Assembly: GCF_048128805.1 (NCBI RefSeq)
Contig: NC_136010.1
Span: 18,356,980-18,420,979 of the forward strand
Source of the DNA: Centroberyx gerrardi
Lineage: Eukaryota; Chordata; Actinopteri; Beryciformes; Berycidae
DNA length: 64,000 bases
Direction of reading: 5' to 3'
The first letter of the stretch is position 1, and every line of letters starts with the position of its first letter. The translations under genes were made by a program, and so were the position numbers. Below the pieces are notes generated by a model that was not told where the DNA came from, ran no database searches, and saw only the letters and a program-made list of their open reading frames with translations. Positions 49,418 to 61,050 of this stretch are shown piece by piece.

Positions 49418-52400
49418 TGTCGTCCCGCTGTCACAGCTGACAGCCCAGCAGATGGCCATCCAGCAGCAGCTCCTTCAGGTGCAGCAGCAACATCTCCTCA
49501 ACCTGCAGAGGCAAGGCCTGCTCTCTGTCCTTCCCACCAGCCCCGCCGCAGCCCCGGGTATGCTGCGCTCCTTCATCCATTTCTCCAAAGAGTTTATTGT
49601 TGAGGAAGTTCAGCCCTTAAGTGAAATCATTTAGTTTAATAGTCGTGTCTAGTAGTGCTTGACGACATTTTCATGGCACACTTAGGCAAGGCACAATATA
49701 AATTGTGAAACTTTCTAGGTGTGGTTTGGTATATGCTGGACAAAAAGACAAAAATGTGTTAACCTGGAGAAAACATGCACGATATCATGCTAATTTGGTT
49801 GACCTTAATAAACCATAGCTAACTCAGTATATATATGTGCGTGTGTAATTTCAGGCTGTGAGAATGGTATCAGTCTGTCCTCTGGTGGAGAGACGAGAGA
49901 GTCTTCCTGTCAACAATCCAGCACCAATGGGCATCATGCGGTCCTGAAGAAGAAAGAAAGGTGCTTTACCCTCTACCCTCTGGCTAAACTTTAATCTCTA
50001 TTTTTGTTTGTGCTAGAGCAGCACTGCCATGTCATTAATGGTGCCATTGTACTCTTTGCAGTGGGTCACTGGATGATCACACACAGAATAGCCATCCTCT
50101 GTATGGAAACGGCATGTGCAAATGGCCCGGCTGTGAGATGGTCTTTGGAGACTTCCAGGCATTTCTCAAGTGAGTGGTGAAGTCTTGCATGCCCGTAACC
50201 TGGCTTGATGTTTATTCACATGTCTATCAGGATGTGCAGTGGCATGGATATACAGTATTATGGACTCAAGAATGAAATTTGCATATTCTATCACTCTCAT
50301 TTGCATGTACACACAGAAGCTAAGCAACTATCACAGTTAAGTTTTCTACCTTTTGTGGTGCAGACCTTCAATTTTAGTTTAAACCACACAAAAAATGAAA
50401 ACAAGGTCTTCCTAATTACAATGAAATTATTCCTGAGGTGATTTGACATTATGATAGTGTTTCTGCAAATTTTATTGAATTAATTACATATATTACATAC
50501 ATATTAATTACATATATCATTATTATACATGTTGTTATATGAATTACATTAGAGCATATAATGATTTTGACTTTAACGTGTTTCTCTGCAGACATCTGAA
50601 CAGCGAACATACACTCGATGACAAGAGTACAGCACAGTGCCGTGTGCAGATGCAAGTGGTCCAACAGTTGGAATTGCAGGTACATCTTTGGTTTATTAAC
50701 AGTAGTCTACTGTTGTGAAGATAGTTTACCCGTTGTTTGGTAGTGTGGGGTACCTAACATTTCCATTTTTAAAACTCTACATTGAAAAGGAAAAGCCTAT
50801 GAAAAACTCTGCAAGTGAATGCCTAGCAAAAGCTTGGGGTGGTGTATGTTCACACCCGGCCTAGAAGCATAAGTGACAACTTTGGATAATTACACTTCTT
50901 CACAGGATGCCAGGAACCAAGCAGTTCTCACACTTATTCTTATTATATTTTGTCATTTAACACAAAACATGAACTACCTCTCAACTTCCATTTTGGTCTT
51001 CTCCCCTAACATAGTTGAAAAAGGACAAAGAGCGACTGCAAGCTATGATGGCTCATCTCAAGTCGTCTGAACCCAAACCAGCACAGCCTGTAAGTATAGT
51101 TGTTTCCTCCAATGAAACAAATGTTGTTTTGTCTGTGGTTATATTAGAAGTTTTCCTGATGTGACTATCTTTATTATCTTTATTTTTCAGGTGAATCTGG
51201 CATCTAACATATCCTTCTCCCAGGCAACATTGGGTAAAGGCCCTCCTCCTATGAGCCTGTCCCAGAGTGCCACAGCACCCTCCACCCCCCTGACACCGCT
51301 GTCTGAGTCCCCTTCAGTCCTCACACCTAATAGCATGTTCACTGGAACCCCTGTCCGGAGGCGATACAGCAGGTCTATGAGCCAAGGTATTAATGGGATC
51401 ATGAACTGTTACCAGTCAGTTATTCACATGGCCTTGATACTTTACTGCTTCCAGGTGCTGGTCTGACTGAAAGCACTGGGACACGGTGCAACGTGGTGAT
51501 GTTATATTTATAAATCATGTTTGTCATTGTCTTTAAACAGATATCATTGACAATAAGGAGTTCTACTTGAGCACAGAAGTTAGGCCTCCATTTACATATG
51601 CATCACTCATAAGACAGGTAAAGTGTCATTTTACACTTTCAATGCCATAGAAATATTGAAATACTGTAGATTTGCATCATGACAGTTTCAGTTTTTCGAA
51701 TCGGACTGTTGCTGTTGTCTTTTTGTCCCCAGTAATTCTTGTATATTCTATCTCTTTTAGGCAATATTTGAATCACCTCGCAGGCAACTGACTTTAAATG
51801 AAATCTACAACTGGTTCACAAGAACCTTCGCATATTTCAGGCGCAATGCAGCTACTTGGAAGGTATTAACTCTACAGCTTTGAAGAATATTAATGTCAGT
51901 GAATTTTAGGAATATCATATGGATGCATTTAGCTGACATTTACATTTAGTGTTAGCATTTTACATGTGATACATACAAGTGATAAATATTGCAAGATAAA
52001 TTTGAATGTGGCTTTTGCTCGTCCCGAAGCTCTGTTGACGACGGGTCCTTATTTTGTTCTTTCCCATAATCCTCTAGAATGCTGTGAGACATAATCTCAG
52101 CCTCCATAAATGCTTTGTCCGTTTGGAAAATGTGAAGGGAGCTGTGTGGACAGTGGATGAGATTGAGTTCCACAGAAGAAGGCCCCAGAAAACCACTGGC
52201 AATGGGTAGGTGTAACATGGACGTAAAGCCAGCACCCTCAAGAGTGTTTCTAGGTATTACCAGAAGTCAGATACATGACATTAAAGTTATTTGACCTTGT
52301 AGCTCCACCTCCTAACCACACAGAATATTTACCCCAAATAAGTCTTAAGAATACGATGCTTATCTCTGGCCCGACTGGTGTTAACACTAAATAAAGTATA

Positions 52401-55195: not shown

Positions 55196-56709
55196 ATGAC
55201 AACTCCTTCAAGGAATCCTGCAAACGATGGTGATTGTTTCAAGCTTGAAAACTCAGGGAGTCCTGTGTCTGAGGGTATGTTTTTCCATTCACTCCATTGT
55301 CTCCATGTTTGATTAGGCCAAGTAACTATTGCATTGTTACTAACTGCTATCCTGAAAGTAGGGAAGTTGGAACTGCAGAATGTTTGCTTATGGACTTACA
55401 CTGATCACTGATTGATAGATGTTGATCATGCCAAGTAGTCTAGAATAGCCATGAGAGAGAGTACATTTTCACACAGTACATTTTTTTTCCTCTGGCCCCA
55501 TTCAAGCCGGGAAACTAGATCCAAATAAAAGCTTGCAAATCAATAACCTCTCCTCATTGAATTTATATGGAGCAAGCTTCCTCTATTGTGCACTTTACAA
55601 GTCTCACCTCCCTGACGTATTCCATGTTAATGGTGCGTTGAATAATTAAAAATCTGCCTTGGAGAGGGTTTGATTGAGTAACTTGTCATATGGAGGCTGG
55701 ACTGGGTGTTGAGACAACATCGAATTCTTCTAACATCAATAAGATGTAAAATCCAATTAAATGAATGGCTATAACAAAACTCCATCCACATGACACACTT
55801 TTCCATGACTGCAATATGGTCTAGATATCAACGAAAGCTATAAAGTGATATGGAAATATGAGAAAATGTACTTTGGATTTACTTTTTAACATATCTTTTC
55901 TGTATTGCTTGTATTGTCCTTTTAAAGGATCCATCCCTAACCCTGTTGGCCATCCATCTAGAGTGATGGGCAAGTCGGTGGTGGTCAGCGTGCGCAGGCT
56001 GAGCACCATTTCAGAGCAGGAACCAGACAAGCTGGATACTGATCTCAGTTCCCAGGATCCCCTGGGTGGCAGTGAATGGGGTGGATCCAGTTTCTCCTTG
56101 TGTTCTGACAGCAAGTATAAGAACAGTAGCAGTCGCTTTTCCTCTGATGCTTCGTATCAGCCCGACTCTGGAGGTATTGTCTGACTGAAAACAGTTAATG
56201 CTATAAGGGTTACATAAAATTGTTTGATTAAATTGGGAAGCCCTGACACTGCAGCATTAATATTGAAACCAAATTTACGAATGTTGTAGTGCTGAAGTTG
56301 ATTTAATTTGTGGTCAAAGGTGCAGTAGATGACATTTTTAGATGTCCTGCTGCTATTTCATTAAATGCAATTTGTGTCTTTGGCTAAACATTTCCATTGA
56401 TTTCCATTTCTTTCCTCTTTTTGATTTCCTTTGTCACTATCACCAGATGACTGTGCAGCTATTCTGCTTGCCTGTCTGCATTGTCGTTTCCATGACTTAA
56501 TAGTCATGCTGCCAGACACATGTGAAAGGGCAGTGAGCCGCTGCTTCCCTTCATACAAATACGTCAAGGCATCCAGTGAGAAGGACCAGCAGGGAAGGGG
56601 CTGCTGCAGCTGCAACCTGGAACTGGACTGTGGCTGCTGCAGCTCCTGCCAGGACACAGCAGAACTCCTGGAGCTGGCCATGGAGATATCAGAGATCTGC
56701 TATCGCTGA
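55196..56709 (+). CDS. mdfic2: MyoD family inhibitor domain-containing protein 2
   Basis: This is a member of the MDFI/MDFIC family. MDFI and MDFIC sequester myogenic bHLH factors, and MDFIC-type proteins act as auxiliary subunits of PIEZO channels through a lipidated Cys-rich C-terminal helix. Three exons, 55196-55274, 55928-56173 and 56447-56709, join in phase 1 to give 195 aa. Exon 1 encodes MTTPSRNPANDGDC. The middle is Ser-rich and probably disordered. Exon 3 begins DDCAAILLACLHCRFHDL, the family hydrophobic segment, followed by a Cys cluster CCSCNLELDCGCCSSC (about 165-180), and ends MEISEICYR, parallel to the family's LEICMECCGICF end. FOXP1 and MDFIC2 are neighbours at human 3p13, which supports this paralog over MDFI or MDFIC. 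The N-terminal exon is inferred from phase and the splice donor only. Confidence 0.85.
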
Positions 56710-57656: not shown

Positions 57657-60168
57657 ATGGGAGACAAATGTTCTGAAAGCATGCTTTCTAACAACTCAAG
57701 CCAGCAACAAACAGAGTTCAATCTGGTCCAAGTGAACAGAACATGGATTCGACAAAGTCAGCACTGCCAGCAGGCAGAGGGAAGGTCATCAGCTGCTAAA
57801 ATGTAAGTAGGACAACACATGGAGAGAGACTAACAGTTACAAGCTTTGCATATAACTATGCATAAAAAAAAATGTATTTTGTAATTCAGTTTGAGAGATT
57901 ATTCTACAATATGTAATATTAAGTCATACAACTTGGCAACACAAATGGGTTTATATGTTCAGTGGCAATATAATGTATTTAACCTGTTACACAAATTAGA
58001 TCACATATTCAATGATCGAACGTCATGCCTATAATTTGCCCTCTTTATTAAAACATGTTTTCATTTGTAATTTGTTGACGTGAATGGGTTATAAGTTCAC
58101 TAGAATGCTCCTTAGACAGGGAGAGCTGAAATACCTTTCTATTTTAGACACTGAGGTCATTCCAGTGTGAACATGCTGTTGCTTACACTGAGTTACAGTA
58201 TGTGATGGCATGTTAGCAGTTGTTTCTGTCTGTCCCTCTCTAACCATACACTGCATCCAACTTTAAGATGGGGTATATACAGTATATTAATTGTATGTTT
58301 TCTTTCTATTGCTTTATTGTGAATTATCCTCAGCTATGAGAGCAAGTCAGACCATGGACTCTCCTGGACAGTGGTCAGCCCCATCGTATTCACCTATAGA
58401 GTTATTCAGTGCAAAAACATACTGGATGCCAGAAATGACACACTGCTATGGGGTCATTTAGGAGATCAAGAACTCAAAGCCACGATAAGTAACTCCAAAC
58501 CTGTTAAGCGTTTTGTTGTCATCGATGAGACTGTCAATCAGCTGTATGGCTCCCAAGTTACTCAGTACTTTGAGGCCAGAAAGGTTGTGCACAAGATCCT
58601 CCCTCTGCCCACCACTGAAGAGAACAAGTGTATGGCGCTAGTGACCAAGATCCTGCAGGAGGTTCATAGCTTTGGTATTGACAGGCGCTCTGAGCCTATC
58701 ATAGCCATCGGTGGAGGGGTCTGTCTGGATGTGGTGGGCTTGGCGGCATCTCTCTATCGCCGGAGGACTCCTTACATTCGGGTGCCAACCACTCTGCTGT
58801 CTTACATTGATGCCAGTGTGGGGGCAAAAACGGGGGTCAACTTTGCCGGGGGCAAAAACAAGCTGGGAAGTTACGTCCCACCAGTGGCAACGTTCTTAGA
58901 CCGCTCATTCGTCCAAACGCTCCCGCAGCGCCAGATCTCTAACGGGATGGCAGAGATGTTGAAGGTGCTCATCACTGCATGAACATAGAGGGCTTTTATT
59001 GTACGCCACCTCTGGCAGCCATGTTGGAGGTCCTCAGTTCCTGGCAACAAAGACTGAACACAGCTGATTGCATTTCTAAACTTATGACTCGGCCCTCTAA
59101 ACAGTATTGAATAGTTTGTGCTCTTTTTGACTGGAACTGATAACTTCATCACTGATCGATTTTGTGTTTGGATATAACTAGTTAGCCTAATTTAATTTGC
59201 ACAATAGCTAATATATCAAGTAGATGTTAGTGTTAGTAGTTGTATGTTCACATTTACATCAGTTGCTTTGCAAAATTAGGCTGCTGGCTAGTTAGCTAGC
59301 TAACAAAGCCAAAAACCAACAGTTTGCTCAGGCTAACTGAGCTATAACTCAGAGTGTTCTGGAGTACCTCTTCAGACAATTGGATTACTTGGAACATCAC
59401 TGAATGGACATACTGTATATCTCTGTTCTAACCAGGTCATATATTTATACATTATTTTGTGCACAGCCAATCCTTCTTTGGTCCTCCATGATGGTGCAAG
59501 CTGTGGCTGATCGAGCTGTGACCTAACTGCAAAGCCTCTATTGGTTTCTACTAGCCAACTACCCCAAACTAGGGGCAGATTGTGATGCATGTACAGAAAG
59601 CCTCCTGCACCCATAACACCACAGAACCTCTTATGCATGTGAGTGTGATTATCACATCCCAGTCCTATGGGTAGGGACATTCTAATTCACTTTCCTTAGC
59701 ATTTTGTCTCCAGCTAACCGTGTCGATCATCCCCCTGTACCTCAGATGGCTCTGATGAAGCACCGCGGTCTGTTTGAGCTGCTGGAGGCTGAGGGCAGGA
59801 CGCTGCTCCAGTCCAAGCTGCAGTCCTGTGAGAGCAGCGAGCGCTCTGAACAAGAGGACAGCGCCACAGCATCCACCCGCATTGCCATAGAAACCATGCT
59901 GGAGGAGCTGGCTCCCAACCTGTGGGAGGATGATCTGGACAGGCTGGTGGATTTTGGTCACCTGATCAGCCCTGAATTAGAAATGGTCAAGAAGCAGCTT
60001 ACATTTTTATTTATATATATATTAGAAGAATTGAGATACCAGGCCATGGAAAGTCTCTAAACGAGCCTATAAAGTCTGTAAACTAAAAATTAGCTCAAAA
60101 CTAAATTGAACTATTATGTAAAACCTTTTAAACTAGTTATAATGTAGTTTTAAAACTTTTTTTTTAAC

Positions 60169-60223
<55 letters not shown>

Positions 60224-61050
60224 GTCTGTCTGTCTGTTTATCTAATCTAAAGCATTAGTATAAACTTTTTAAACTATTTAAAAATAGTTAAAAACTAGTT
60301 TAGATCTAGTTTATCAAGATATTTTTTAGATAATAGATAGCCATTTATAATCAAGTTATAATGCTCTATAAGGTAAACTAATTAATTCATATCTAGCATT
60401 AATTGTGGATACAAACAGTTAAAATTTATTGATGAATTTTTGAGAGTTTCCCTTCCCACAGAAATCCATAATCTGTATATATTCCTAACCCGTCTATCTT
60501 CTTCACACACTCACAGAGCGTGTTGCCAGCGCTGCTACACGGGGAGGCGGTGAACATCGACATGTCCCTCATGGTGTATGTGGCCCAGCAGAGGGGGCTG
60601 CTGACAGCAGAGGAGAAGGCCCGCATCATCCAGTGCATGCTGGGCCTGCAGCTGCCTGTGTGGCACCAGGACTGCACCCTGGCCCTGGTGCAGAAGGCTC
60701 TGAGCGAGCGTCTGAAGCACTCTGCTGGTTCTCTGAGGATGCCTCTCCCCACAGGACTGGGATCTGCAGGTATGAGAACGGATCATAAAACCTGTGTTTG
60801 TTTTCAGCCTGTTTATCCTTTACTCACACTTACAAGTCTTAAAGAGTGACGACTTTCACATGACAATCTTTTGTTTTGAGCTTAGTAAATACAAGCAAAT
60901 CACATTTTGTCTGTCATGTAATATGCTCTGACTTATTATTTATCTTTTGTCATTGATTTTATAGAAATCTTCCATGACATGAGTGAGGATATCCTCTGCA
61001 AAGCTTACTGTAAATGGACTGATGAGCTTTCTTCTTCTGGAAATAAATGA
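57657..61050 (+). CDS. 2-epi-5-epi-valiolone synthase (EEVS), sugar-phosphate cyclase
   Basis: EEVS cyclises sedoheptulose 7-phosphate to 2-epi-5-epi-valiolone, the first step of gadusol (UV-screen) synthesis in fish, amphibians, reptiles and birds. It is related to dehydroquinate synthase and uses NAD and zinc. Five exons, 57657-57802, 58334-58964, 59746-59985, 60517-60769 and 60965-61050, join in phase to give 451 aa with no stop or frameshift. Visible motifs are the NAD-site AIGGGVCLDVVG (GGG at 175-177), RVPTTLLSYIDASVGAKTGVN and GGKNKLGSYVPP. The metal ligands are E256 (GMAEMLK), H331 (DFGHLISP) and H347 (LLHGEAVNID); the 16-residue His-His spacing equals that of dehydroquinate synthase. 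The exon 2 donor, AAG|GTGCTC, is weak but is the only one giving the family junction MLK-MALMKH. The gene appears functional. It lies 0.95 kb after mdfic2 on the same strand. Confidence 0.93.
60170..60236. repeat. (TCTA)n/(TCTG)n microsatellite in EEVS intron 3
   Basis: About 13 TCTA units are followed by three to four TCTG units, within an AT-rich intron containing repeated AAACTAGTT/TTTTAAACTA words. Confidence 0.95.
61042..61047 (+). terminator. poly(A) signal overlapping EEVS C-terminal codons
   Basis: AATAAA lies in the codons immediately before the TGA stop. No other plus-strand AATAAA is seen until about 61,826. If this signal is used the 3' UTR would be only about 10-25 bases. Confidence 0.35.

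Follow-up and report, generated by a model that had tools for sequence, protein, structure and literature searches.

An eevs-b-type EEVS gene, found without a neighbouring MT-Ox, in a duplicated FOXP1-MDFIC2-EEVS-MITF block of Centroberyx gerrardi

Gene content of the window

Here we describe a sugar-phosphate cyclase gene in the Centroberyx gerrardi genome, together with the genes around it. The window is the whole 64,000-nucleotide stretch of DNA that was analysed (C14:18356980-18420979), and the genome searched comprises 779 Mb in 278 contigs. Exons of FOXP1, the last coding exon of an MDFIC2-like gene and a complete EEVS gene follow one another on the forward strand. In window coordinates, the features are as follows.

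50099..50170, + strand: FOXP1 zinc-finger exon (aligned part)
50569..50682, + strand: FOXP1 exon from zinc finger to leucine zipper (aligned part)
51582..51617, + strand: FOXP1 forkhead exon a (aligned part)
51761..51862, + strand: FOXP1 forkhead exon b (aligned part)
52078..52191, + strand: FOXP1 forkhead exon c (aligned part)
56425..56709, + strand: last coding exon of the MDFIC2-like gene, a stop-to-stop frame with an approximate left border (Pfam MDFI, 1.2e-13; 51% identical to its C5 paralogue)
57657..57802, + strand: EEVS-b exon 1, with the start codon; ends in phase 2, has a C5 homologue and a strong donor, gtaagt
58334..58964, + strand: EEVS-b exon 2, NAD-binding region with GGG 175-177, E256 and K259; PF01761 match in the whole-genome search
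58965..58970, + strand: weak donor of intron 2, gtgctc (log-odds -0.4; C5 counterpart gtatgt, 5.7)
59746..59985, + strand: EEVS-b exon 3, with D328, H331 and P335
59986..59991, + strand: weak donor of intron 3, gtcaag (log-odds -2.4; C5 counterpart gtaact, 2.7)
60517..60769, + strand: EEVS-b exon 4, with H347, E349 and H407
60965..61050, + strand: EEVS-b exon 5 with the stop codon, homologous to C5 exon 5

The five exons of the window EEVS (57657-61050, + strand) join to 1356 nt encoding 451 amino acids plus a stop, and neither a premature stop nor a frameshift interrupts the joined frame. All intron borders are GT-AG, and the exon phases recur in a second EEVS copy on contig C5. The first-pass annotation had read a complete five-exon cyclase here, which the open frame, the borders and the 451-residue product bear out, and the residues it named (E256, H331, H347 and GGG 175-177) all lie where it placed them. 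Its description of the gene as intact is borne out for the coding sequence only, since two of the four splice donors are weak. Intron 3 contains, 3' of its weak donor, roughly 20 tandem copies of TCTA (60169-60249). Rfam at the gathering cut-off gave no match anywhere in the window.

The encoded protein is assigned to the EEVS class

The predicted protein matches Pfam DHQ_synthase (3.5e-32) and DHQS_C (2.3e-19), both above cut-off. In a search of solved structures, 19 distinct sequences matched it (E up to 1), led by the bacterial EEVS ValA (PDB 4p53) at 323 bits. This score and the two Pfam matches rule out a chance resemblance. The next solved relatives are 5tpr at 215 bits, DHQS at 142 bits and lower, and 2-deoxy-scyllo-inosose synthase at 90 bits. 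We take 5tpr to be of the DDGS type, its database label being 3-dehydroquinate synthase, and 1dqs to be the DHQS of A. nidulans.

All 15 rows of a family alignment, built from solved-structure pieces and translated relatives, agree at E256, H331 and H347; in this alignment the solved-structure rows are aligned pieces rather than whole chains and the L001 row is an untrimmed long frame. The bacterial relatives in it were hand-picked (eight plasmid records among the 30 listed of 115 with a match). Other positions discriminate between classes, and those compared are the ones visible in our own alignment, as distinct from the 14-site list of Osborn et al. D328, P335, E349 and H407 of the window protein are the same residues as in ValA. 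The DDGS row reads A, P, H and T at these positions and so differs at three of the four, and the solved DHQS rows read N, H and E at 328, 335 and 349, with V, S or no aligned residue at 407. Taken singly, these sites are not exclusive: D328 and H407 are found also in L007, which is annotated as a DHQS, and in L001, and position 407 is R in L004, whose annotation is sedoheptulose 7-phosphate cyclase.

A first tree of 15 rows, built without the C5 copy, grouped the window protein (96/93) with ValA, DDGS and three cyclases carried on plasmids. When L001, L007 and L008 were dropped and the C5 copy was added, the resulting 13-row tree paired the two fish copies (100/100) and split ValA, DDGS, the plasmid-borne cyclases and both fish copies from DHQS at 100/100; this tree carries a long-branch warning, which concerns L004 and the DHQS rows. 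Branching inside the cyclase group is not settled, so the tree alone cannot part EEVS from DDGS.

It is extremely unlikely that the protein is of the DDGS or DHQS class instead of EEVS. Nine curated bacterial models match it and the two with the highest scores, 206 and 203 bits, describe 3-dehydroquinate synthases, which would favour such a class, with none of the nine reaching its cut-off. Against it, the lead of ValA is 108 bits over the DDGS-type structure and 181 over the best DHQS, and the residues at 328, 335, 349 and 407 are consistent with EEVS; on these grounds we rejected a DDGS or DHQS identity. We therefore assign the gene, by its sequence, to EEVS rather than to DDGS or DHQS. The first-pass annotation had proposed the same class and had looked to the best match among cyclase classes as its test; that match is ValA by score, with DHQS and DDGS lower. 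A scan of bacterial and archaeal genomes returned one distant relative.

Two EEVS loci in duplicated gene blocks

A DHQ_synthase profile search of the genome scored three candidates that fall in two places, the window gene and a gene on C5, giving at least two loci; whole-genome searches here score best candidates only, and copy numbers are lower bounds. The C5 gene (EEVS-a; C5:29253174-29256366, - strand) has five exons and encodes 454 residues, and 306 of 447 aligned residues (68%) are identical between the two copies.

The gene order on C14 is FOXP1 (+), MDFIC2 (+), EEVS (+) and MITF (-), with MITF past the window end. On C5 it is MITF (+), EEVS (-), MT-Ox (+), MDFIC2 (-) and FOXP1 (-). The two blocks match in gene order and orientation, MT-Ox excepted. 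Spacing on C14 is close, with a gap of 947 bases between MDFIC2 and EEVS and about 3.8 kb from EEVS to the last MITF coding exon. We identify the window gene, from this arrangement, as the eevs-b duplicate within a duplicated FOXP1-MDFIC2-EEVS-MITF block; the a and b names are assigned by gene order and not from the tree.

The neighbouring genes have diverged to different degrees. The MDFIC2-like gene is present in both blocks, with 46-51% identity between copies. FOXP1 in the window (50099-52191) is more diverged than its C5 counterpart: against a mammal-like query, identity over the two larger forkhead exons is 88-89% in the window and 95-100% on C5, and over the zinc-finger and zipper pieces it is 71-87% and 88-100%, respectively. 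The C5 FOXP1 also has a second, alternative forkhead exon (C5:29348287-29348421, within L027), which presumably resembles the mammalian FOXP1-ES exon. Searched against the window, its peptide matched the standard forkhead exon (52078-52191, 54%) and otherwise gave only short, chance-like matches.

MT-Ox pieces adjoin the C5 copy

Of three MT-Ox pieces on C5, two match Methyltransf_3 and one matches adh_short_C2. EEVS-a and MT-Ox are divergent there, lying head to head across C5:29253174-29270379. Six C5 MT-Ox exon peptides searched against the window and the next 30 kb found nothing better than E 0.26. For the first three (E up to 10), the best values were 0.62 in the window and 0.26 in the next 30 kb; for the second three (E up to 5), the best was 3.7. 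An MT-Ox hidden in the window or just past its end was rejected on this six-peptide search.

Genome-wide, a 161-residue MT-Ox query gave four matches, of which two were strong and both on C5 (a lower bound). One of these overruns an exon start across two stop codons because the query joins two exons. The weak matches, on C20 (E 3e-6) and C15 (E 7e-6), are taken as other O-methyltransferases. The block of FOXP1, MDFIC and MITF that characterises the vertebrate gadusol pair is thus found on C14, and the adjoining MT-Ox, likewise a feature of that pair, is found in pieces beside EEVS-a on C5 and was not found on C14. The first-pass description of the window gene as one for gadusol synthesis is accordingly not supported as written. 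With no MT-Ox found in the C14 block, gadusol from the window EEVS would need the MT-Ox of C5.

Splice donors and protein constraint

Donors were scored with a weight table. The lowest two of the 18 scores, -0.4 and -2.4, belong to introns 2 and 3 in the window EEVS, and correct splicing is consequently not assured. In this set, the donor of a neighbouring gene is the highest-scoring GT close to an aligned exon end, which biases those scores upward; one FOXP1 exon end without a GT was dropped, and two MT-Ox ends are uncertain. The intron 2 donor matches the consensus at 6 of 9 positions and the intron 3 donor at 5 of 9. Among the 3732 GT dinucleotides in the window they rank at the 88th and 75th percentiles, so many random GT score at least as well as the intron 3 donor. 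Donors 1 and 4 are strong, and the acceptors all end in AG behind pyrimidine-rich or ordinary sequence. In the C5 copy, all four donors score 2.7 or higher. Intron 3 might conceivably be recognised through an unusual U1 pairing.

The protein itself is about as conserved as its C5 sister. Between the copies, dN is 0.244 and dS 1.82 by NG86, and 0.236 and 1.32 by LWL85. One-sided changes against ValA are 15 in each copy over 376 columns, and against three plasmid-borne cyclases they number 17:12, 16:20 and 19:17 (a:b). Among the 110 columns in which four bacterial cyclases are invariant, 92 are retained in b and 88 in a, and the end branch of b in the 13-row tree is shorter (0.19 against 0.28). 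Had b been unconstrained throughout, with its branch dS assumed to be 0.6-0.9, some 29-44 stop codons would be expected; none is observed, which, with these assumed branch lengths, leaves room for neutral drift in only about the final 7-10% of that branch. The protein of the window copy has been under long-term constraint, and conservation equal to that of the sister argues for retained function. The synonymous distance between copies is near saturation, so a recent loss of constraint would not be visible.

Function and retention of the window copy

The window protein most probably works as a cyclase that depends on NAD and metal and converts sedoheptulose 7-phosphate to 2-epi-5-epi-valiolone. 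Its product would become gadusol only in cells that also make the C5 MT-Ox, a supply in trans required by the lack of any MT-Ox found in the window block. A division of labour with the C5 copy, in place, time or amount, is the likely reason for retention. Taken together, that the window gene is eevs-b, a working EEVS whose product reaches gadusol through the C5 MT-Ox and which has been kept by such a division, is the reading we consider probable.

Early decay, in which the frame is still open and weakening of the intron 2 and intron 3 donors has already cut or ended production of full-length protein, is unlikely. The two donors contrast with those of the same C5 introns (-0.4 and -2.4 vs 5.7 and 2.7), no MT-Ox was found in the window block, and zebrafish is given as being without the eevs-b block in PMC8294118. 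Yet the window protein is conserved like the C5 copy, with the shorter end branch, its 1356 nt hold no stop or frameshift, its acceptors are normal and donors 1 and 4 are strong. Alternatively, the window gene might be a stand-alone EEVS feeding a non-gadusol product made by enzymes other than MT-Ox. A gene kept and conserved in a block in which no MT-Ox was found would suit this, as would the mt-ox-free block that PMC8294118 describes in 12 teleosts, zebrafish excepted. It is nevertheless improbable, since the genome has an MT-Ox able to act in trans, and no partner enzyme was identified near the window copy in a search limited to named genes. There is correspondingly only a slim chance that the second teleost EEVS is kept for 2-epi-5-epi-valiolone or a derivative serving a non-gadusol purpose, which would amount to a second vertebrate cyclitol pathway.

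We favour an active eevs-b that would depend on the C5 MT-Ox for gadusol. Since 2015 vertebrates have been known to make gadusol, and why many teleosts retain a second EEVS in a block without MT-Ox is a fair question. It is sharp in this genome, which has two EEVS loci, strong MT-Ox matches at one only, and a partnerless copy that is about equally conserved. The weak donors also make the window EEVS a candidate place for early gene loss. The gene is soundly identified as one of a known kind, and what adds interest is the retention of a partnerless copy.

Comparison with known systems

Zebrafish EEVS (LOC100003999) makes 2-epi-5-epi-valiolone, and MT-Ox converts this product to gadusol (Osborn et al. 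2015, PMC4426668). That paper also reports that animal EEVS agree with ValA at 14 sites and that mammals are without the gene, in agreement with the first-pass annotation on the latter point. The zebrafish and window genes both belong to vertebrate EEVS, and that of zebrafish has MT-Ox as its partner whereas the window copy is unpaired. The identity of 68% between the a and b copies falls within the 60-72% given there for animal EEVS-like proteins. Another source, PMC6173838, gives the EEVS/MT-Ox pair as tail to tail, unlike the head-to-head C5 pair.

ValA, the Streptomyces EEVS, shares 168 of 376 aligned residues with the window protein, along with the same metal ligands and the EEVS-type residues. 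Unlike the window EEVS, it is bacterial and serves validamycin (PMC4426668).

A described counterpart comes from Xu et al. 2021 (PMC8294118), where a foxp1a-eevs-b-mitfb-frmd4Bb block without mt-ox is common to 12 teleosts, zebrafish excepted; the same section gives two eevs-like copies in all 12, which is inconsistent with that exception. A block so widely shared means that the presence of the gene, which the first-pass annotation thought informative for lineage, says little about it. No eevs-b function was reported in the titles or abstract openings found, a scope that leaves out most subscription journals. Teleost eevs-b and the window copy are alike in being a second EEVS between FOXP1 and MITF, with five exons and without MT-Ox. 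The window block differs in retaining an MDFIC2-like gene, which is absent from the b cluster as written in PMC8294118. Within this genome, EEVS-a and the window copy share 306 of 447 residues and the same five exons and phases; EEVS-a differs in its adjoining MT-Ox pieces and in having no donor below 2.7. A second EEVS has already been reported in other teleosts (PMC8294118), and the window gene is of this known kind.
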